Source: Corynebacterium urealyticum DSM 7109 (GTDB lineage Bacteria > Actinomycetota > Actinomycetes > Mycobacteriales > Mycobacteriaceae). Taken from it: 64,000 bases of DNA. Of the stretch, positions 31,770 through 43,442 are shown one piece after another. The position numbers and the translations under genes are program-made. The stretch is taken from NCBI RefSeq assembly GCF_000069945.1, contig NC_010545.1, positions 248,001 to 312,000 on the forward strand. Direction: 5' to 3'. Below the pieces are notes generated by a model that saw only the letters and a list, made by a program, of their open reading frames with translations, was not told where the DNA came from and ran no database searches. The first letter of the stretch is position 1; every line of letters starts with the position of its first letter.

Positions 31770-33554
31770 ATGGAAAAGATCAGTATGACTACCTCCGGAC
31801 TTACCCCGCAGGGGACAGGCCGCGTCCTGTTCGTTGGTGCCGGCCCCGGAAATCCGGAACTGCTGACCGTTCGCGCCCAGAAGGCTCTGGAGAGCACCGC
31901 CCACGCGTGGGTGGACCCCGACGTCCTGGAAGGCGTGCGTGCCCTGGTGGGGGCCCAGGTGCCCGTCCCACAGCACAAGATCGATGCTGCCGAGGCCGAG
32001 TGGCAGGCCAAGGTCGCCGCGGCGAAGGAGGCCGGCGCTCGCCGGAAGCCACCCCGCCCCGCGCCGCCGACCGCCGCTGAGATCCGGATCGCTGCGCCCT
32101 TCGTCGGGGAGGGTGCAGTGGCAGAGGGGGAGACCGAGCCGGTCCACCAGCTGACCGCGAGTCAGATCGCCGAGGAGATGGCCGCGCTGGCCCGCGAGGG
32201 CGAGGATGTCATCCGCCTGGTGGCGGGCAACCCGCTGTCCAACCAGGCCGTGATGTTGGAGCTGCAGGAGGTTGCAAACCTGGGCGTGGACTTCCAGGTC
32301 GTTCCTGGCATGACCGGCTCGGTCGCAGTGCCCGCGTTCACGGGCATCGGCGTGGGCTCGGACTTCACGGAGGCCGATGTGCGCGGTGGCGCGGACTGGG
32401 ACCAGCTGGCCTCCGCGGGACTACCGCTGATCCTCACCGCCGCGCCGGGGGACCTGGCCACCATCGCCAACGAGCTGAAGGAACGCAATATCCCGGGCTC
32501 GACGGCGGCGACCGTCACCCTGCATGGCACGACCCGCAAGCAGCGCAGCTACGACGTCACCCTGGACACCCTGAAGTCTGTCGCAGCGGCCTCCGGGCCC
32601 GCGGCGAAGGAAGGCGAGCTGCCGGAGCAGCTGTTGGTCACGATCGGTTCCCAGGCGGGCAACCGCAGCAAGTACTCCTGGTGGGAGAACCGCGCCCTCT
32701 ACGGCTGGACCGTGCTGGTGCCGCGCCCGAAGGCGCAGGCCGCGCCGATGAGCACCCGCCTGGCAAGTCACGGCGCGATCCCGGTTGAGGTGCCAACGAT
32801 CTCCGTTGAGCCGCCACGCACCCCGGCGCAGATGGAGCGCGCCATCAAGAACCTCGTGGATGGCCACTACTGCTGGGTGGTCTTCACCTCCGTCAACGCG
32901 GTGAAGGCGACCTGGGAGAAGCTCCAGGACTTCGGCCTCGACGCCCGCGCCCTGGCTGGTGTGCGCGTGGCCGCGGTGGGGCCGAAGACCGCCAGCGCGG
33001 TGCAGGCCCTGGGCATCACCCCGGAACTGCTGCCCAAGGACGACGCCCGCAACGCCTCCGGCATCGTCGATGTGTTCCCGGCCCGCGACCCGGACCTGGA
33101 CCTGGTAGACCGGGTGCTGCTGCCGCGCGCGGACATTGCGACGGAGGTGCTGGTCGAGGGACTGCTGAAGCTGGGCTGGAAGGTCGACGACGTCGTCGCC
33201 TACCGCACCGTCCGCGCCGCCCCTCCGGCCCCGGAGATCCGCGACATGATCAAGTCCGGTGGCTTCGACGCGGTATGCTTCACCTCCTCCTCGACGGTGA
33301 AGAACCTGGTGGGTATCGCCGGTAAGCCACACTCGCGGACCATCATCGCCTGCATCGGCCCGATGGCGGCCCAGACCGCCCGGGAGCACGGGCTTCGGGT
33401 GGACGTTATGCCGGAGGTCGCCGGCGTACCGGAGCTGGTGGATGCGCTGGCCGCCCACGTGGCGGACCTGCGTGCGAAGGGGCAGCTGCCACCGCCGCGC
33501 AAGCGCCGTCGTCGTCGGAAGAAGACGAGCGAGCAGAGCGCAACGGCGAAGTAA
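31770..33554 (+). CDS. hemD: uroporphyrinogen-III synthase fused to a degenerate methyltransferase domain
   Basis: This protein of about 594 residues has an N-terminal tetrapyrrole methylase-like domain (RVLFVGAGPGNPELLTVRAQKAL) and a C-terminal uroporphyrinogen-III synthase domain from about residue 320 (VLVPRPKAQAAPMSTRLASHGAIPVEVP, AVCFTSSSTVKNLV). The C-terminal domain closes hydroxymethylbilane to uroporphyrinogen III. In the methylase domain the usual RLKGGDPFVFGRGGEE motif is RLVAGNPLSNQAVMLE, so methylation of uroporphyrinogen is doubtful. A Lys/Arg-rich tail (RKRRRRRKK) ends the protein. ATG 31785 is an alternative start. A stem without a T-tract follows. Confidence 0.9.
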   Translation: MEKISMTTSGLTPQGTGRVLFVGAGPGNPELLTVRAQKALESTAHAWVDPDVLEGVRALVGAQVPVPQHKIDAAEAEWQAKVAAAKEAGARRKPPRPAPPTAAEIRIAAPFVGEGAVAEGETEPVHQLTASQIAEEMAALAREGEDVIRLVAGNPLSNQAVMLELQEVANLGVDFQVVPGMTGSVAVPAFTGIGVGSDFTEADVRGGADWDQLASAGLPLILTAAPGDLATIANELKERNIPGSTAATVTLHGTTRKQRSYDVTLDTLKSVAAASGPAAKEGELPEQLLVTIGSQAGNRSKYSWWENRALYGWTVLVPRPKAQAAPMSTRLASHGAIPVEVPTISVEPPRTPAQMERAIKNLVDGHYCWVVFTSVNAVKATWEKLQDFGLDARALAGVRVAAVGPKTASAVQALGITPELLPKDDARNASGIVDVFPARDPDLDLVDRVLLPRADIATEVLVEGLLKLGWKVDDVVAYRTVRAAPPAPEIRDMIKSGGFDAVCFTSSSTVKNLVGIAGKPHSRTIIACIGPMAAQTAREHGLRVDVMPEVAGVPELVDALAAHVADLRAKGQLPPPRKRRRRRKKTSEQSATAK

Positions 33555-33572
33555 GGGGAACGAGCCCATGAC

Positions 33573-33599
33573 ACCCGTCGGTACTGAGTACCGGCGGGT
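33573..33599 (+). terminator. hairpin between hemD and nirK
   Basis: 12-bp arms (33573-33584 with 33588-33599, one G-T pair) and a 3-nt loop. There is no T-run, so termination is probably partial. Confidence 0.5.
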
Positions 33600-33624
33600 T
33601 GCTCGTCTCAGTAGGCTGAAAAGC

Positions 33625-36405
33625 ATGGCGAAAGACCGAACCGCGTTTCATAGTGGGCGGCAGTCGTGGCACCGGCGAGCCGGCCGTCCGGTCAATATCT
33701 GGCTGAGCCTCCTGCTGGTCGCGGGGTTGGTGCATCCCGCTCTGCCCGAATACCGCTGGGTGCTCATTCACCTACTTACGCTGGGCGCGGTGACCAACTC
33801 CATCGTCGTGTGGTCCCAACGCTTCACCGAGCAGTTGCTGGACCAACGATGCCCGGATTCCGCCCGGCCTCGCCAGCTGAGGCGCATCTGGGTGCTCAAC
33901 GCAGGCATTGCGTTGACGATGATCGGTCAGCTCGGCAAGGGGGCTGAGGATGCTTTCGACGCCGCGCTGACGATCGCGCACAGCATCACGGTTGTTGGTG
34001 CTGCGGTCGTGGGACTGAGCTTGAGCTCGCATGCACTAAGCCTGCTGCGTCAGGCTCAACGAGCCCGGGCCAGCATGGAGCGCACTCGGCCACTGGTGGC
34101 CGTTAGCGCCTACATTCTTGCGGCGCTATTCCTACCAATCGGCGCGATCGCGGGTGCGCTCCTGGCAGTGGGGATGCCCTCACCGTGGCAGGAACGACTC
34201 CTCCTGGCGCACACCGCGGTGAACGTTCTGGGCTTTTTGGGCTTCGCCGCGTCCGCGAGCCTGACATTCCTTGCCCCACAGCTGCAGGGCGCGCTGGGCA
34301 GTGGCAAGAGGCACGACGGGCACCCCGGCTTGGACGATGGGGCAGGTCGACTGTGGTTTGTGATCGTCCTGCAGGGGATCGGGGTCCTCACCATCGGCGG
34401 TGGTGCACTTGTTGACCAGCGATTCGTGGTTCTCGGCGGGCTCGTCGCCTATGTGGCCGCCTGGGTGACCCTGTTGACTGCCTATGCCCCGGCACTGCTG
34501 CGTGGGATTTTCAGTGGGGACGCGCCGGTGTTTGCGGGCACGGCTATGGTGGCTGCGCCGATGTGGCTTATTGGCGGACTGCTGTGGCTCGCAGGCCAGA
34601 TCGCCAGCGGAACCCCGGCCAGCGAGGTCACGCTGCCTACGCTGGCTTTGACCGTGGGCTTTGCAGCCCAGCTGCTGTTGGGGGTGATGAGCTATCTGCT
34701 GTCGAGCACAATCGGTGGCCCACGTCCCGCCGTCAATGCAGGTTTGAGGGCTTTGGATTGGGCTGGGCCTTTCCGCACGGTGCTGCTGAACCTGGGCTTG
34801 GCAGTGTGGCTGCTGCCGATTAGTAGCTGGCTGAAGGTCGCGGTATCGGTGCTGACCCTTCTGCCACTCGCTCTCGTGGTGCCACTGATTCCCAGGGCTG
34901 TGAAGGCTCAAGGCGCACGCTTGGCCGCCTTCGCGCGCGAGCGCCAGCAGAGAGCGGCCGATCACCCCGAGAACGAAGGCGCAGAGCAGCCCGACGAGGC
35001 GACGGCAGGGGTATCACACACCCGCGAGAACCTGGTGGCCAGCACGCGACGCGGTGGCGTCGCCGAAGTAGCCGCTGCCATCGCGACGATTGCCCTGGTG
35101 CTTGCAAGCGGGGCAGCCCTTGGGGGATCCGGCAGTGCCACGAACCCGACCGCCGATTCGCAGGTCGTCCCCACGGGCAACACCGTGCGGGTGGAAGTTT
35201 CCGCCAAGGACATGGCCTTCCACCCCAGCAGCGTGACCGTGGCGCCCGGGGACAAACTCGAGCTCGTGCTCACCAACGATGACAAGCAGGATCACGATCT
35301 GAAGCTCGCCAACGGAGCAGAGACGGGACGCGTGTCCCCCGGCGAAACCCGGGTACTCGACGCCGGAGTCATCAGCGCGGACGTGGAAGGGTGGTGCACC
35401 ATCGCGGGCCACCGCATGCAGGGCATGATCTTCATGGTCCACACCAGCGGTGATGGCAATGGGGCGCAGACTCCTGGCGGAGGAACCCGGTCGGGAAACA
35501 CTGCTGATGCTGCCGGTTCCGGGAACACCGGCGAGGAGGTGCCCAACACGCCGCTCGACCCGACTTGGATACGGGACCCGGAACTCGCACCGGCGAGCGC
35601 GAACCGCACCCACCGGATCACGATCGACGTCCAGCAGGTCCAGGGAACCCCGCACGAGGGCGGAGACATCCGCGGTTGGTGGACCTTCAACGGCAAACCG
35701 ATGGGGCCCACCCTGCGTGGCAAGGTCGGGGATACCTTCGAAATCGTGCTGAAGAACTCCGGCACGATGAACCACTCCATCGACTTCCATGCGGGCATCA
35801 TCTCCCCGGACGAACCCATGCGAGACATCGCCCCGGGGGAGCAGCTGACATACCGCTTCACCGCGGGTAACGCCGGGATTTGGATGTACCACTGTGCGAC
35901 CATGCCGATGAGTTTGCACGTGGCTGCCGGCATGTTCGGCGCAGTGATCATCGATCCGCCGAACCTGGACCCGGTGGATAAGGAATTCCTGTTGGTTCAG
36001 TCGGAGGTCTACGGCCTGGTCTCTGACTCGGAGCAGCCGGTGGATGAGGAGCTCCTGCAGGCCGCCCAGCCGAGCGCAGTGGTGTTCAACGGGTTGGAGA
36101 ACCAGTACGTTCAGTCCCCGTTGCGCCTGGAGCCAGGGCAGCGAGCACGGTTCTGGTTACTCAACGCGGGCCCGAATATCGCCGAGAGTTTCCATATCGT
36201 GGGGACACAATTCCCGGTGATGTACAAGGAAGGGGCCTATACGGTGCGCAACGAGCCGAGCGGTGCGGGGCAGGCACTCGACCTTCAGCCCGCGCAGGGC
36301 GGATTCGTGGAGGCGGAGTTCCCGGAGGCGGGGACGTATCCCTTCGTCAACCACCGCTTTGTGGACGCCGAGCGCGGCGCGATGGGGCATGTTGTGGTGA
36401 AGTAG
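33625..36405 (+). CDS. nirK: membrane-anchored copper nitrite reductase (fusion protein)
   Basis: This 926-residue fusion should reduce nitrite to NO at the outer face of the membrane. Residues about 20-450 hold roughly eleven hydrophobic helices, including HLLTLGAVTNSIVVWSQRF. Residues about 520-605 are a cupredoxin with blue-copper ligands His557, Cys591, His596 and Met601. Residues about 658-926 are a complete CuNIR: type 1 ligands His717, Cys757, His765 and Met770; type 2 ligands His722, His756 and His910; catalytic Asp720 and His857. An in-frame extension to 33442 overlaps hemD. TAGGCT (33612-33617) is 7 nt before the ATG at 33625, so a leaderless start is preferred. The neighbouring gene starts 5 nt after the stop. 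Confidence 0.88.
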   Translation: MAKDRTAFHSGRQSWHRRAGRPVNIWLSLLLVAGLVHPALPEYRWVLIHLLTLGAVTNSIVVWSQRFTEQLLDQRCPDSARPRQLRRIWVLNAGIALTMIGQLGKGAEDAFDAALTIAHSITVVGAAVVGLSLSSHALSLLRQAQRARASMERTRPLVAVSAYILAALFLPIGAIAGALLAVGMPSPWQERLLLAHTAVNVLGFLGFAASASLTFLAPQLQGALGSGKRHDGHPGLDDGAGRLWFVIVLQGIGVLTIGGGALVDQRFVVLGGLVAYVAAWVTLLTAYAPALLRGIFSGDAPVFAGTAMVAAPMWLIGGLLWLAGQIASGTPASEVTLPTLALTVGFAAQLLLGVMSYLLSSTIGGPRPAVNAGLRALDWAGPFRTVLLNLGLAVWLLPISSWLKVAVSVLTLLPLALVVPLIPRAVKAQGARLAAFARERQQRAADHPENEGAEQPDEATAGVSHTRENLVASTRRGGVAEVAAAIATIALVLASGAALGGSGSATNPTADSQVVPTGNTVRVEVSAKDMAFHPSSVTVAPGDKLELVLTNDDKQDHDLKLANGAETGRVSPGETRVLDAGVISADVEGWCTIAGHRMQGMIFMVHTSGDGNGAQTPGGGTRSGNTADAAGSGNTGEEVPNTPLDPTWIRDPELAPASANRTHRITIDVQQVQGTPHEGGDIRGWWTFNGKPMGPTLRGKVGDTFEIVLKNSGTMNHSIDFHAGIISPDEPMRDIAPGEQLTYRFTAGNAGIWMYHCATMPMSLHVAAGMFGAVIIDPPNLDPVDKEFLLVQSEVYGLVSDSEQPVDEELLQAAQPSAVVFNGLENQYVQSPLRLEPGQRARFWLLNAGPNIAESFHIVGTQFPVMYKEGAYTVRNEPSGAGQALDLQPAQGGFVEAEFPEAGTYPFVNHRFVDAERGAMGHVVVK

Positions 36406-36953: not shown

Positions 36954-37079
36954 AACCCACCCGGTGGGCTCAACGGGCCCCGGGAATCCACCACGCAGCA
37001 GCCAGCAACCGCGCAGCCTGTCGGGGCGCGAGGGGCGGGGCCAAAAGTGGTGTCTGCCCCGTGGCGTACCATCGGTGTT

Positions 37080-38105
37080 ATGTCTGAATCCGCACAGAAT
37101 TCCCAGCTGCAGTTCAATATCCCCCGCCGCCCGCGCCGCCTGCGCACCAACCCGGTGATGCGCGATTTCACGGCGGAGACCAGCCTGAACCCGAGCCAGC
37201 TCGTCCTGCCGATGTTCGTTGCGGACGGCCTGACCGACGCGAAGCCGATCAGCTCCCTTCCTGGGGTTTATCAGCACACCACCGACTCTCTGTTACGCGC
37301 CGTCGAGGAAGCTGCGGAGGCGGGAGTGGGCTCCATCGACCTCTTCGGTGTTCCGCTGGACGAGGATAAGGACGCCACCGGCTCCGTGGGGGTGGACCCG
37401 GAGGGGATCCTGAACAAGAACCTCCGAGCTATCCGCAAGGAGTTCGGCAACGACATCCTCGTCATGGCTGATACCTGCCTCGATGAGTTCACCGACCACG
37501 GCCACTGCGGGGTGCAGGGCGAGGACGCCTTCGGCCATCAGATCGTGGACAACGACGCCACTCTGGAGCAGTATGCCGCCCTCGCGGTCGCCCAGGCGGA
37601 CGCCGGCGCCCACATCGTCAGCCCGTCCGGAATGATGGACGGCCAGGTCGCGGTTATCCGCGCGGCCCTGGACGCTTCCGGCCACGAGGACGTATCCATC
37701 ATGGCCTACTCCGCGAAGTACGCCTCCGCCTTCTACGGCCCGTTCCGTGAGGCCGTCGGCTCCAGCCTGACCGGCGACCGCCGCACCTATCAGCAGGACC
37801 CCCGCAACCGTCGGGAGTCCCTGCTGGAGACCCAGATGGACATCGACGAGGGCGCGGACATGGTGATGGTCAAGCCCGCGATGCCGTACCTGGACGTGCT
37901 GCGGGAGGTCGCGGACATGTCCCCGGTTCCGGTCGCCGCTTATCAGGTGTCCGGTGAATATGCGATGATCAGTGCAGCAGCCCAGAACGGTTGGATCGAT
38001 CTGGAGCCGGCGATCATGGAGTCCCTGACCGGGATTCGTCGCGCCGGTGCGGACATCATCCTGACCTATTGGGCGACGACCGCCGCGAAGATGCTGCGCG
38101 GCTAG
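37080..38105 (+). CDS. hemB: delta-aminolevulinic acid dehydratase (porphobilinogen synthase)
   Basis: This 341-residue enzyme joins two 5-aminolevulinates into porphobilinogen. The two Schiff-base Lys are Lys213 (YSAKYASAFYGPFR) and Lys265 (VMVKPAMPYLDV). The metal-site stretch reads DTCLDEFTDHGHCG, so Cys133, Asp135 and Cys143 take the places of the three zinc Cys of the E. coli enzyme. TACCAT (37067-37072) is 7 nt before the ATG at 37080, so an upstream in-frame GTG at 37047 is rejected. A terminator follows at 38115. Confidence 0.96.
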   Translation: MSESAQNSQLQFNIPRRPRRLRTNPVMRDFTAETSLNPSQLVLPMFVADGLTDAKPISSLPGVYQHTTDSLLRAVEEAAEAGVGSIDLFGVPLDEDKDATGSVGVDPEGILNKNLRAIRKEFGNDILVMADTCLDEFTDHGHCGVQGEDAFGHQIVDNDATLEQYAALAVAQADAGAHIVSPSGMMDGQVAVIRAALDASGHEDVSIMAYSAKYASAFYGPFREAVGSSLTGDRRTYQQDPRNRRESLLETQMDIDEGADMVMVKPAMPYLDVLREVADMSPVPVAAYQVSGEYAMISAAAQNGWIDLEPAIMESLTGIRRAGADIILTYWATTAAKMLRG

Positions 38106-38114
38106 CCGAAGGAT

Positions 38115-38150
38115 GTGCCGACAATTCCGCTGATTGTCGGCACGTATTTT
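38115..38150 (+). terminator. rho-independent terminator after hemB
   Basis: Perfect 11-bp stem (38115-38125 with 38133-38143), 7-nt loop, then GTATTTT. Confidence 0.75.
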
Positions 38151-38178: not shown

Positions 38179-39102
38179 ATGAGCAATTCTTCTTCTCCCA
38201 CTCCCTCCGGGCAGTCCCGTCCGCCGCGGCCGCGCGGCCAGCAGGGCCGGCAATGGGAGGCCAGCCCCGATAACGGGCACATCCCCGGCTACCCCAAGCC
38301 GGAGGACGGCGGCCCGGTCGGGCCCGGTTGGAACAACCCTCAGGGGCGGGGCAATCAGTGGCAGTCCGGCAATGGCTCGAAGAATCAGGGAAGCCCGAAC
38401 CCGGGCACGCCCCCGGAGCTGCCGAAGCCACCGAAGGTGGGGCGCCCGGATGGCCTGGCGCCGAGCCTCAAGGGGGCCCCGGAGAACGTCCGCCTGGGCG
38501 TGCGCGCCTGGCTGGCAGTCAGCGGCCTGCAGATCCTCTACGCCCTGGTGCAGTTCGCCGCGAACTTGAGCGACGACCGCGACCTGCGCCGCACCGTCAC
38601 CAAGACGATCGAGGATGGGGCCGGCGTCCCCGACGAGGTGAAGCAGAACGTCTCCATCGACACCCTCGTGCTGGGGACGAATGCCCTGACGACCGCTTGG
38701 CTCGTCGTCGCCGCCCTGATCTGCGCGTGGCTCACGCTGCGCGCCGGGCGCGGCGCGGTGTATTCCCGCATGTTCCTCAACGTCGGCTCGGTCTACCTCA
38801 TGCTCACCGCGGTGCTCATGAGCCTGTCCTCCGGGCCGCCGACGATGGCGGTGGGCTTCGTCCTGGCCCTTGGCGTGCTCAGCATCCTGGCCGGCGTGAC
38901 CGCGGGCGTGGGCATGTGGTTCATGTCCCGCCCCGGCAACGAGGAGTGGTTCGGCATCCCGAGCCGCGAAGAGGTCGAGCGCTATGCCGCGGAATATGAG
39001 CAGGCCCGCCGCGCGCGCGATAAGCACAAGGGCGGAAAGAAGTCTCTCCTCCCCTGGGGGAAGTCCCAGGATGAGAACGCTGATAGCGAAGATAAGGCCT
39101 AA
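38179..39102 (+). CDS. membrane protein with Pro/Gly-rich N-terminus
   Basis: This 307-residue protein begins with about 95 residues of Pro/Gly/Asn-rich disordered sequence (SNSSSPTPSGQSRPPRPRGQ), then LGVRAWLAVSGLQILYALVQF and three further hydrophobic helices up to about residue 255. The C-terminus is Lys/Glu-rich. No family is recognised. It is only 9 nt upstream of the degenerate P-type ATPase gene and is probably co-transcribed with it, so the two may work together. The start region has no clear ribosome binding site. Confidence 0.65.
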   Translation: MSNSSSPTPSGQSRPPRPRGQQGRQWEASPDNGHIPGYPKPEDGGPVGPGWNNPQGRGNQWQSGNGSKNQGSPNPGTPPELPKPPKVGRPDGLAPSLKGAPENVRLGVRAWLAVSGLQILYALVQFAANLSDDRDLRRTVTKTIEDGAGVPDEVKQNVSIDTLVLGTNALTTAWLVVAALICAWLTLRAGRGAVYSRMFLNVGSVYLMLTAVLMSLSSGPPTMAVGFVLALGVLSILAGVTAGVGMWFMSRPGNEEWFGIPSREEVERYAAEYEQARRARDKHKGGKKSLLPWGKSQDENADSEDKA

Positions 39103-39111
39103 GCTGAGCCG

Positions 39112-41919
39112 ATGGCTGGAAAATTCTCCACACCTCAACCCGGGCGGGGCGACGACATCCAGGAACTCGACCTGGCGATCGCGCAGGCCCGCAGCGCGGC
39201 CGAAGCGGCCGGCGTGGACGTCGAAAATTTCGACGCCGAAGAACACAGTGACGTGCTCAGCACGGGCAACGGGCTGACGTCCTACGCCTTCCACCTGGAA
39301 AACCTGGAGTCGGCGGCGCAGGCCACCTCCCTGGAATACGAACTCAACGCCATCGACGGGGTCGAGGCAGTGGTGGTGTACTCCGCCAACATGGTGTGGA
39401 TCTCCGCGCTGGATAGCGTTCGGCCCGACGAGGTGCAGCGCCACCTCGAGGATGCCGGGATCCGTGGCCACCTCACCGCCTCCTCGCTGCGCCGCCGCGC
39501 CACGCGCCTGACGAAGCAGGACCCCCGCATCCGCTCCCGCCGCGAATCTGCCCGCGAGCGCGCCATCATGGCCGCCCGGCGCCGCAAGCAGGGTACGGGG
39601 GCACGCCGCCGTGGGGAGGCCCGCGCCGGTGAAGTGCTGCACACCGCCCGCGAGCTGGTGACCGCCTGGCGACTCATCATCGCGGTCGTCTTCGGCCTGC
39701 CCGTCGTGGCGATGCAGATGATCCCCTCCCTGCAGTTCGACTGGTGGCAGTGGGTGTGCCTGGCGCTGTCCACGGTCGTGGTTGGCTGGTCAGCCTGGCC
39801 TTTCCACCGCGCGATGGTCGCCGGTGTGCGCCGCAGCATGTCCGCCCTCGACGGGGCAAGCAGCCTGGCGATCCTGCTGGCCTACGGCTTCTCCGTGCTC
39901 TCCCTGATCACGACCTCCGCCTCCGACCCGACGTGGCGAGCCAACACCGTGTGGCTGGCCCGCACCTGGTCCGATCCGAGTTTCGAGGGTGCGATCTTTT
40001 TCGACGTCGCGTGTGGCGTGACGATCCTGCTGCTTTTTGGTCGCCTGCTGTCCCGGCGGAACCAGATCCGGACCCGGGCCGTGTTGGCGGTGCTGCAACC
40101 GCCGAAGAACGAGCCGATCACCGTCATTCGGAAGAACAAGTCGAAGAAGAAGGTCATCTCCACCGCGGAGATCAGGCGCGGCGACGACGTCCTGCTGGAA
40201 ACGGATATGACGTGCCCGGTGGACGGTGAGATCATCAGCGGCCGCGGGGTCGTGGACATGGGGCCGGTCGGGGGAGTGGACCGCAAGAAGGAGCTCACGG
40301 TCGGCGACCGGATTTACGCCGGGGCAACGAATCACGGGCAAACACTCAAGGTGCGCACCTCCGCCACTGGCTCGCACACCCGCCTGGCCGCGATGGGGCG
40401 CTGGTTCAACCATGCCGCGCAGGACGAGAACCGGATGGCCCAGATCACCAACCGCTCGGCCAGCCTGCTGGTGCCGTGGGCCTTCGCCATCGCGGTGGTG
40501 AACTTCTGCATGTGGTTGATCTTCAACGGCTCCCTGGACGCCGCTGTGGCGACCAGCCTTTCTGTCCTCGCTGCGGTGGGGCCGGTGGCGCTGGCCCTCT
40601 CCGCGCCCCTGGCTCTGCGCCTAGGGCTCGCACGAGCGGCGAATTACGGCATGCTGCTGCGCGATAGCGCGACGATCCACCGACTCTCCGGCGTGGATTC
40701 GATCATTTTCAACCGGCTGGGAACGCTCACCCGGGCACCGATGAACGTGGTGAACGTGACGGCCGCACACGGAGAGCACCCGGAGCTGGTGCTGCGAGTC
40801 GCGGCGTCGTTGATGATGGAGTCCGATCACGCGGTCTCCAAGGCGATCGTCCGCGCGGACCGCGAGACCCGCGACGCGAACTCCGGCTTCGACACCATCC
40901 CCGTGTGGCTGGAAACCGGCGAGGTGAAGGTCAACGCGGAGGGCACGTTCGTGGGCTCTATCGACGTCCCGGTCCCGCCGAAGGGGAAGAACTTTAAGGA
41001 CGTGGTGCGCCGCGACCGGCACGAGCTGCCGGCGTCCCCGGACCTGACGGATGACGAGAACGTCCGTCGCGTCACCGCCCGGGTCTGGCGACCAAAGGAC
41101 CTGGGCGAGGTGCGCGACCCGCACCTGGCCTCCGCGGCGCTGTCCGGTGGCAGCCCCGTCGTCGTGTCCTGGAAGGGTAAGGACCGCGGCGTGATCAACG
41201 TCGCCGATGCCTTTAAGGACGACGCCGCCCTCGCGATCGAGGAGCTGGAGTCGATGGGCGTGGAGACGCTGATGATGTCCCGCGACATGTACCCGGTGGC
41301 CCGCCACCTGGCGGATTCCATCGGGGCGTCTACGGTGCTGGCCGGCGTGGTGCCGGGCAAGAAGGCCAAGGCCGTGCGCGGCGTGCATGCCCGCGGGCAC
41401 CGGGTAGCGATGGTGGGCGATCAGGATTCGATCGGCGCGCTGCGGGTGGCGGATGTCGGCATCCTCATGGGGTCCCCGAGCCGCACGGACGCCGATAGTG
41501 CGGACGTGGTCCTGCTTCGGGACGACGTCATGGCGATCCCCACCCTGATTAACTTCGTCCGCCACGTGCGCAATACCGTGGACTGGAATGTGTGGCTGGC
41601 CTGGGCGTATAACGCCATCGCGATCACCCTGGCGGTGGCGGGCGTGATGAACCCGATGGCCGCCACGGTGGTGATGCTGCTGAGCTCCACCGTCATCGAG
41701 TGGCGCAGCTCCCGCATCCTGCGGCACAACTACAACGCCGCCACGATGCGGCATACGCACACCTGGCAGGGCTGGGTCGAGCGGCTGCGCAGCCGCCGGG
41801 AGCGCCGCCGTCGCGCGGAGCAGCGGGAGCAGTTCGTGGAGAGCGCGCGCCTGAATGCCACGGAGGATGGCCGGGAGCTGCAGGAGCACATCACCGGTCC
41901 CGGCGTCGCCGGCCGCTAG
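39112..41919 (+). CDS. degenerate (pseudo) P-type ATPase homologue in the heme cluster
   Basis: This 935-residue protein has P1B-ATPase architecture: an HMA-like N-terminal domain (about 50-135) without CxxC, a basic linker, membrane helices, an A-domain, helices carrying the usual CPC position, then P- and N-domains. Catalytic signatures are lost. The phosphorylation motif reads FNRLGTLT, with Asn534 for the essential Asp. TGES is GGVD (387-390), CPC is GPV (490-492), the HP pair is His573-Ala574, TGD is SRD and GDGxND is GDQDS (769-773). The frame is intact and codon use normal, so it is not a decaying pseudogene. It should not pump by the usual cycle. A heme- or metal-related binding, sensing or scaffold role is inference. 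Confidence 0.8.
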   Translation: MAGKFSTPQPGRGDDIQELDLAIAQARSAAEAAGVDVENFDAEEHSDVLSTGNGLTSYAFHLENLESAAQATSLEYELNAIDGVEAVVVYSANMVWISALDSVRPDEVQRHLEDAGIRGHLTASSLRRRATRLTKQDPRIRSRRESARERAIMAARRRKQGTGARRRGEARAGEVLHTARELVTAWRLIIAVVFGLPVVAMQMIPSLQFDWWQWVCLALSTVVVGWSAWPFHRAMVAGVRRSMSALDGASSLAILLAYGFSVLSLITTSASDPTWRANTVWLARTWSDPSFEGAIFFDVACGVTILLLFGRLLSRRNQIRTRAVLAVLQPPKNEPITVIRKNKSKKKVISTAEIRRGDDVLLETDMTCPVDGEIISGRGVVDMGPVGGVDRKKELTVGDRIYAGATNHGQTLKVRTSATGSHTRLAAMGRWFNHAAQDENRMAQITNRSASLLVPWAFAIAVVNFCMWLIFNGSLDAAVATSLSVLAAVGPVALALSAPLALRLGLARAANYGMLLRDSATIHRLSGVDSIIFNRLGTLTRAPMNVVNVTAAHGEHPELVLRVAASLMMESDHAVSKAIVRADRETRDANSGFDTIPVWLETGEVKVNAEGTFVGSIDVPVPPKGKNFKDVVRRDRHELPASPDLTDDENVRRVTARVWRPKDLGEVRDPHLASAALSGGSPVVVSWKGKDRGVINVADAFKDDAALAIEELESMGVETLMMSRDMYPVARHLADSIGASTVLAGVVPGKKAKAVRGVHARGHRVAMVGDQDSIGALRVADVGILMGSPSRTDADSADVVLLRDDVMAIPTLINFVRHVRNTVDWNVWLAWAYNAIAITLAVAGVMNPMAATVVMLLSSTVIEWRSSRILRHNYNAATMRHTHTWQGWVERLRSRRERRRRAEQREQFVESARLNATEDGRELQEHITGPGVAGR

Positions 41920-42098: not shown

Positions 42099-43442
42099 AT
42101 GGCTTCGACCAACACCAACGTCAACGCGGCAGCCGAGGAGCGCCACCACGAGAGCGCGGCGGCGATGGAGCGGGCACGCCGCTTCATCCCAGGGGGTGTG
42201 AACTCCCCGGTGCGCGCCTTCGGCTCTGTCGGCGGGACCTCCCCGTTCATCACCTCCGCCTCCGGCTCCCAGCTGCAGGATGCCGATGGCCTCAGCTACG
42301 TGGACCTGGTGTGCTCCTGGGGGCCGATGATCCACGGGCACGCCCACCCGGAGATCGTCGAGGCCGTGAAGTCGACCGCCTCCCGCGGCCTGTCCTTCGG
42401 CGCCCCGACCTCCCTGGAGGTCGACCTGGCTGAGGAGATCGTCAACCGCACGAGCGTGGAGAAGGTCCGCCTGGTCAACTCCGGCACCGAGGCCACCATG
42501 TCCGCCGTGCGCCTGGCCCGTGGCTTCACCGGTCGCGACAAGATCCTGAAGTTCGAGGGCTGCTACCACGGCCACGTGGACTCCCTGCTCGTCGCCGCCG
42601 GCTCTGGCGTGGCCACCTTCGGCCTGCCGGACTCCCCGGGCATCACCAAAGCCGCCGCCAGCGACACCGTCGTGGTGCCGTACCGCGACATCGAGGCCGT
42701 CAAGAAGGCATTTGCGGAGAACGAGGGCCAGATCGCCGCCATCATCACCGAGGCCACCCCGGGCAACATGGGCACCGTTTCCTCCATCACCGCGGACGGC
42801 ACCAGCTTCAACGCCCAGCTCAAGGAGATTGCGCACGCCAACGGCGCGCTGCTCATCGTCGACGAGGTCATGACCGGCTTCCGCGTGGGCTACCAGGGCT
42901 GGTTCGGCAAGGACGGCGTGGCCGGCGACCTCACGACCTTCGGCAAGGTCGTCTCCGGTGGCCTGCCTGCCGCGGCCTTCGGCGGCCGTGCCGACATCAT
43001 GGACCACCTGGCCCCGGTCGGCCCGGTGTACCAGGCCGGCACCCTCTCCGGTAACCCGGTCGCGATGGCCAGCGGGCTGGCGTCGTTGAAGCTGGCGGAC
43101 GAGGACGCCTACCGCACCCTGGACGCCAACGCTGAGCGCCTGATCGGCCTGATCACCGAAGCACTGAACCGCGAATCCGTGGAGCACCATATCCAGCGTG
43201 CCGGGACGATGTTCTCCGTGCGCTTCGCAGACGGCGAAGGCACCAACTTCGGGGAGATGAAGGCCGCGGACACCTTCCGCTACCCGGCCTTCTTCCACGA
43301 GCTGCTGGACAACGGCATCTTCGCCCCGCCGAGCGTATTCGAGACCTGGTTCGTCTCCACCGCGCTGACGGACGCGGACTTCGAGCGTTTCGAGGCCGCC
43401 CTCGTGCCAGCAGCGAAGGCCGCCGCAGCCGCGGAGGCTTAG
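42099..43442 (+). CDS. hemL: glutamate-1-semialdehyde 2,1-aminomutase
   Basis: This 447-residue PLP enzyme makes 5-aminolevulinate from glutamate-1-semialdehyde, the step after Hem[14 protein letters not shown] is at the N-terminus, then [30 protein letters not shown], the PLP Lys in [12 protein letters not shown] and [20 protein letters not shown] (42038-42043) is a likely -10, giving a leader of about 50 nt, with AGAAAGGG before the ATG. hemE and hemY, which I recall just upstream in C. glutamicum, are absent here. Confidence 0.97.

Follow-up and report, generated by a model that had tools for sequence, protein, structure and literature searches.

A putative pseudo-P1B-ATPase in the hem locus of Corynebacterium urealyticum

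The genus Corynebacterium carries a P1B-type ATPase that, on good sequence support, is catalytically dead and yet conserved; it is genus-wide in its distribution though lost in some lineages. The C. urealyticum DSM 7109 copy (hereafter the pseudo-pump) was studied in a 64,000-nucleotide stretch (the window) of a genome of 2.37 Mb. It occupies positions 39112–41919 of the forward strand, and the intact 935-codon frame given in the initial annotation was borne out: the ORF is open throughout and encodes a CopA-like P1B-ATPase of 935 amino acids. The annotated location between hemB (37047–38105, start uncertain) and hemL (42099–43442), on the same strand as both, was also correct. The protein matches the Pfam families E1-E2_ATPase (above the cut-off) and Hydrolase (HAD) and scores 309 bits, below the cut-off of 346, against NCBIfam TIGR01525 (heavy-metal P-type ATPase). 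Its nearest named relative, 98% identical, is also from C. urealyticum.

Pumping by P-type ATPases requires phosphorylation of a catalytic Asp. At this site the protein reads FNRLGTLT, and alignment places Asn534-Arg535 (40711–40716) at the Asp-Lys of DKTGT; in the same alignment Asn and Arg occupy these positions in all 81 dead proteins, and Asp and Lys in all 49 active ones. The other motif changes reported earlier (GGVD, GPV, His573-Ala574, SRD and GDQDS) are all present as well. Sequence and alignment put GGVD (residues 387–390; 40270–40281) at the TGES site of the A-domain; the alignment is gapped here, so the exact correspondence is uncertain. None of the 81 aligned dead proteins has a TGE[SPA] string at this site, the two that contain one having it far away. 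The TGD motif is aligned with SRD (residues 723–725; 41278–41286), its middle Gly being Arg724 in 81 of 81 dead proteins. According to string counts, GDGxND, here GDQDS (residues 769–773; 41416–41430), is found at none of 80 dead loci. Asp725, Lys751 and Gly769 are invariant in dead and active sets alike. At the HP motif, aligned with His573-Ala574 (40828–40833), the family keeps His in 78 of 81 proteins and Pro in 52, so that HA in place of HP is, by this alignment, a feature of part of the dead family.

The copper-binding motifs are similarly altered. GPV (residues 490–492; 40579–40587) stands at the CPC metal site: string counts find CPC, SPC or TPC in TM4 at 0 of 80 dead loci versus 52 of 52 active ones, and Pro491 is retained in all 81 dead proteins. 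The HMA-like N-terminal domain (residues 53–127; 39268–39492) shows a strand-helix-strand-strand-helix-strand order in the model and lacks CxxC; a GMxCxxC-like string is found at none of the 80 dead loci versus 50 of 52 active pump loci. For the CPC and CxxC strings, 52 of the 59 pump loci of the active control were tallied. A new Cys301 (40012–40014), near the start of the predicted fourth membrane helix (297–326), is present in 81 of 81 dead proteins at a position where active pumps mostly have Ala (37 of 49), and Asp298 is present in 79 of 81. Tyr833 is kept in all 81 dead proteins and Met855 in 77, and Asn834 in at least 93% of both sets; we take the YN of TM5 and the Met of MxxSS in TM6 to be features of P1B-1 Cu+ pumps, and both are present in the dead family. 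Judged on these residues, the pseudo-pump is without the hallmarks of a functional P-type ATPase (DKTGT Asp, TGES, TGD, GDGxND), and of those of a P1B-1 Cu+ pump it lacks CPC and the HMA GMxCxxC but has YN and Met.

Spread of the altered phosphorylation site

Conservation of the Asn had been proposed as a check on the initial annotation, with an intact DKTGT at the same locus taken to indicate a strain-specific loss. No such homologue was found among the loci read. Asn-Arg replaces Asp-Lys in 121 of 121 aligned proteins (the query and 120 listed of 305 matches) and at all 80 pseudo-pump loci fetched from other species, with DKTG at all 59 related pump loci that served as the control set. The organisms named among the listed homologues are all Corynebacterium; the C. 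callunae orthologue (P0090) likewise has Asn. DKTGT is intact in each of the four remaining E1-E2 ATPases encoded by the window's genome. At 79 of the 80 fetched loci the family profile is covered from end to end by one open frame, and at the 80th for the most part; the stops counted in the genus-wide match listing thus lie mostly at match ends. A strain-specific loss, a sequencing error and a pseudogene were rejected on the combined grounds of the fixed Asn-Arg, the open frames and a low dN/dS (below).

In a search of 242 Corynebacterium species genomes, 186 match the pseudo-pump at E 1e-60. Since one of them (G169) matches only at 430 bits, in the active-pump range, we count 185 carriers; by sequence match, then, about three quarters of the species carry the gene. 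The motif was read in 126 carriers (the window, 80 fetched loci, 30 weak matches and 15 more), and 59 are assigned by score alone. Among the 186 matches 36 are weak: 31 were re-searched by profile, three had already been read (L044, L056 and L057) and two (G179 and G180) are unread. The re-search identified 30 members with Asn-Arg and one ordinary pump, G169, and no intermediate form among the 31. Two weakly matching copies, L264 (G236) and L265 (G191), are split over several frames in assemblies less than 90% complete, the Asn-Arg of L265 sitting in the second of two frames, and a third, L262 (G142), has one stop inside the match.

Outside the genus, we searched 251 genomes of the family. The 16 Corynebacterium carriers among them score at least 657 bits, and no pseudo-pump was detected in the 229 non-Corynebacterium genomes, where the best match reaches 328 bits and 35% identity; three candidates per genome were scored, so a very diverged dead relative might be missed. 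The best 14 matches from other genera all have DKTGT. A plasmid search limited to 5000 records gave only matches below 60% identity, and the five listed are all ordinary pumps of less than 30% identity.

Selection and origin

The claim that the gene is maintained was upheld by its dN/dS (Nei-Gojobori), which is far below 1: 0.016–0.076 in eight of nine close pairs and 0.169 in the ninth, the pairs being partly non-independent, since in three of them the window, L006 and L007 are compared with one another. In the same pairs the values are 0.009–0.056 for hemB and 0.016–0.089 for hemL (unmeasurable in one pair). At about 58% protein identity the pseudo-pump has an omega of 0.32–0.41 versus 0.12–0.23 for hemB and hemL, and therefore evolves about twice as fast as these genes at larger distance. 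With its catalytic residues lost and purifying selection over the whole protein, the pseudo-pump is, on sequence grounds, a pseudoenzyme.

A quick tree of 73 rows places all dead proteins on one side of a branch with an SH-aLRT of 100, and the stem of the dead clade is 1.26 changes per column long. The exact sister group is unsure, because two distant pumps on long branches lie close to the dead clade and the program cautions against false groupings. The simplest account would be a single loss of activity in or before the genus ancestor, followed by rapid change and then by constraint.

Remodelling of the N-domain and the predicted fold

The N-domain (residues 546–680, bounds set by us; 40747–41151) has a set of fixed or nearly fixed residues of its own. 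Arg584, Pro597, Gly611 and Pro661 are each present in 81 of 81 dead proteins, Trp599 is found in 78, and Trp659 takes the place of a Gly in 78. Glu568, present in 49 of 49 active pumps, has given way to Ala, Ser or Met in 71 of 81 dead proteins, and there is no conserved GxG. Pairwise identity of the N-domain is 0.587 in the dead family versus 0.452 in active pumps, whereas that of the whole protein is 0.519 versus 0.634; the 52 active proteins comprise 50 distinct sequences, with two identical pairs, and include paralogues, so that their identities are not strict-ortholog values. Of 703 circular shifts, counting the observed one, 6 gave a contrast as large. The N-domain is thus the least conserved domain of active pumps and among the most conserved in the dead family, where its lead in identity is narrow (0.587 versus 0.572 for the P-domain). 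By column entropy it ranks third there, at 1.42; helices 1 and 2 (1.26) and the second stretch of the P-domain (1.32) come ahead of it. Conservation of the membrane helices goes the other way: TM5-6 identity is 0.511 in the dead family versus 0.838 in active pumps.

The P1B fold is predicted to be intact: the AlphaFold2 model has the full CopA fold, with the P1B membrane core and the A, P and N domains, and aligns to CopA (7r0g), ATP7B and HMA4. The model, made of the pseudo-pump alone, resembles E1 structures, and we read nothing into that likeness.

Genes surrounding the pseudo-pump

Of the 80 fetched loci, 78 have hemB upstream and 74 have hemL downstream, each on the strand of the pseudo-pump; in the stretches fetched, two loci showed no hemB and six no hemL. 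At 29 of the 74 loci hemL is within 1.2 kb, and at 45 it is farther away. In the window, a terminator-like hairpin of 14 pairs (38113–38145, forward strand) follows just after hemB and may separate the hemB transcript from that of the ATPase and the small membrane protein before it (MP1, below) in C. urealyticum. The signal is weak, two overlapping terminator-like sites having been found versus a mean of 3.0 in shuffled sequences.

Between the hairpin and the ATPase lies a gene for a small membrane protein, MP1 (38179–39102, forward strand, ATG start assumed), which ends 9 bp before the ATPase start. MP1 has no Pfam match; its predicted model is a helical bundle (pLDDT 75.8), for which a structure search returned no match with E < 0.001, a result that does not make the fold a new one. 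Its homologues with an organism in the listed name are hypothetical proteins of Corynebacterium. An MP1 match is present at 65 of the 80 pseudo-pump loci, and the dN/dS of MP1 in the three closest pairs (0.18–0.28) is looser than that of the pseudo-pump. At 42 or more of the 80 loci (L125–L204) the genes for MP1 and the pseudo-pump are separated by that for MP2, another small membrane protein, which has four helices and an MFP sequence close to the N-terminus; MP2 is missing from the window. Further downstream, the window encodes a histidine-phosphatase-family protein, a ResA-like redoxin, a CcdA-like protein, ResB and a cytochrome c assembly protein.

Absence of the pseudo-pump in part of the genus

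In 56 of the 242 Corynebacterium genomes there is no pseudo-pump match. A profile re-search of these genomes yielded hits in 12, all with DKTGT and none closer to hemL than 42 kb where the two share a contig; the other hits are on separate contigs. In 40 of the 56 the roughly 7 kb upstream of hemL were searched, and no trace of the ATPase was found in any of these 40. All 56 have hemL, so heme can be made without the pseudo-pump. A hemL tree of 114 rows, of which 74 carry the gene and 40 do not, requires five changes, and 34 of the 40 absences fall in one clade, which argues for few losses rather than general decay.

An MP1-like gene is still present in genomes that have lost the ATPase. This weakens the case for MP1 as an obligate partner, and with it, together with the frequent insertion of MP2, the initial suggestion that the pseudo-pump is a partner of the adjacent membrane protein. 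At three of the four ATPase-free loci listed, the membrane-protein gene is followed, directly or past a small ORF, by ORFs that on inspection look like hemE and hemY and that stand ahead of hemL; at the fourth it is hemL that comes next. The window's genome, by comparison, has its hemE (the sole URO-D match) far from the cluster, at C1:1093179–1094219. Among genomes without the pseudo-pump, five pump loci (L073–L075, L078 and L230, of which L073 and L230 are identical) have DKTGT and CPC and leave the TGE[SPA] pattern unmatched, perhaps owing to a variant A-domain loop.

Discussion

We propose, tentatively and with a probability of roughly 0.4, that the genus-specific pseudo-pump has been kept as a membrane-anchored binding protein acting through its N- and P-domains, perhaps in heme or cytochrome supply. 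A CopA-type copper P1B-ATPase would have lost its phosphorylation, dephosphorylation and ATP motifs and its copper-ligand Cys residues once, before or early in the Corynebacterium radiation, and the dead pump would then have been retained for binding. This is the most likely way for it to work since the usual phosphorylation, nucleotide and copper thiol motifs are gone, yet the fold is kept and the N-domain has tightened. The cytoplasmic N- and P-domains would bind a ligand or a partner protein, because the N-domain moved from last place in conservation to near the top, with other fixed residues now standing where its nucleotide motifs were; the membrane part may serve as an anchor or as a conformational relay. 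It is solely gene position, the steady place after hemB and before hemL, that suggests heme synthesis or cytochrome supply as the process to which the ligand or partner belongs. The hairpin after hemB, hinting at a separate transcript, counts against the proposal, as do the lack of the pseudo-pump in genomes with hemL, its faster change than hemB and hemL at larger distance, and the narrow lead of its N-domain.

The initial annotation had listed heme or metal sensing, a scaffold for heme enzymes and a partnership with the neighbouring membrane protein as candidate non-pumping roles. A dead and maintained protein stands. The absence of the HMA CxxC and of CPC-type motifs at 80 of 80 loci weakens the case for metal sensing through the classical sites. 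As a scaffold or regulator at the membrane, the pseudo-pump might act in the manner of HemX of Bacillota, to which it is presumably unrelated in sequence. The likeness is one of role, both being membrane proteins encoded at hem genes. HemX, encoded in hem operons, is described in the accessible part of one report as lowering the level of glutamyl-tRNA reductase post-transcriptionally by a mechanism that is unknown (PMC10991733).

In a bolder and, in our judgement, unlikely version of the proposal, a whole P-type pump would have become a membrane receptor throughout the genus. The former ATP pocket of the N-domain, with its now fixed Trp and Arg, would bind something new, perhaps a hem enzyme or a tetrapyrrole, and the conformational change of the pump would be reused to control heme synthesis at the membrane.

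It is rather improbable that the dead protein serves as a regulatory partner or decoy of an active CopA paralogue, tuning copper export or the copper supply to the oxidase. It resembles the CopA type and keeps Tyr833, Asn834, Met855 and Pro491 of the membrane path, CopA-type pumps are matched in 60 of the 61 Corynebacterium genomes searched, and inactive homologues sometimes regulate active cousins, as stated in the available text of PMC11266112. However, the pseudo-pump and copA are not neighbours in the window's genome, a CopA-type match persists in genomes that lack the pseudo-pump (G001, G043 and G097, for example), and the membrane helices of the dead family show less conservation than those of active pumps.

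We consider it doubtful that the protein passively binds metal or heme on the outside, with a remodelled outer site of the membrane domain (Asp298, Cys301, Met855 and Tyr833-Asn834, which from CopA structures we presume to cluster) holding copper or heme ready for the cytochrome c and oxidase assembly factors encoded downstream. The new invariant Cys301, the nearly invariant Asp298 and the redoxin, CcdA-like, ResB and cytochrome c assembly genes downstream fit such a site, but every classical Cu motif is gone. A transporter or ATPase still working by an unusual mechanism is very improbable: the predicted fold, several path residues and the shared Asp725, Lys751 and Gly769 are kept, but the phospho-Asp, its Lys, the TGD Gly, GDGxND, the N-domain Glu and GxG, CPC and CxxC were lost together, and the TGE or TGD strings present in 5 of 81 dead proteins are never at the motif sites. 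Decay of a gene on its way out, in favour of which one could cite the several lineage losses, the long stem, the many genus-match rows counting a stop within the matched span and, of 30 weak relatives read, the two split copies and one internal stop, is scarcely credible and for the genus as a whole is refuted by the low dN/dS, the fixed Asn-Arg and new invariant residues, and the open frames.

The pseudo-pump differs from CopA-type Cu+ P1B-1 ATPases (CopA 7r0g and 3a1c; ATP7B) in having Asn for the phospho-Asp, in the loss of TGES, TGD, GDGxND, CPC, the HMA CxxC and GxG, and in an N-domain whose conservation exceeds that of most of the protein instead of falling below it. The many database names that call it a ‘metal-transporting’ or ‘heavy metal translocating’ ATPase are contradicted by its sequence. 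The nearest printed parallel that we found is the degenerate P4-ATPase domain of Plasmodium guanylate cyclase beta, described in the consulted portion of PMC6592433; that domain is eukaryotic, of the P4 type and fused to a cyclase, whereas the pseudo-pump is a free-standing bacterial P1B protein. For the Plasmodium protein group the same text gives a regulatory role of the ATPase domain, but reports the beta cyclase to work without it. In the open literature searched, with most subscription papers outside its scope, we found no description of the pseudo-pump family, and a free-standing pseudo-P-type ATPase appears to be undescribed there; the text searched of a review of unsolved P-type ATPase questions (PMC10654040) has no passage on inactive members under the words used. 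The HrrA targets of C. glutamicum include hemE and hemY according to the part of PMC7337898 consulted, which gave no match for cg0513, cg0514, ATPase or hemB; nor did the terms searched match in the available part of a paper on the DtxR and HrrA regulons (PMC12327846). The ‘cation transport ATPases’ in the accessible text of a paper on indole (PMC7764795) refer to another gene, copB.

The pseudo-pump offers a natural system for asking what the pump fold does without pumping. Corynebacterium, which has both industrial and clinical members, may have in it a missing regulator of its heme supply. Elsewhere in the window, an ORF of 987 amino acids at 33442–36405 has a hydrophobic N-terminal part followed by Pfam matches to cupredoxin-like and multicopper oxidase domains, and perhaps encodes a membrane-anchored copper enzyme.
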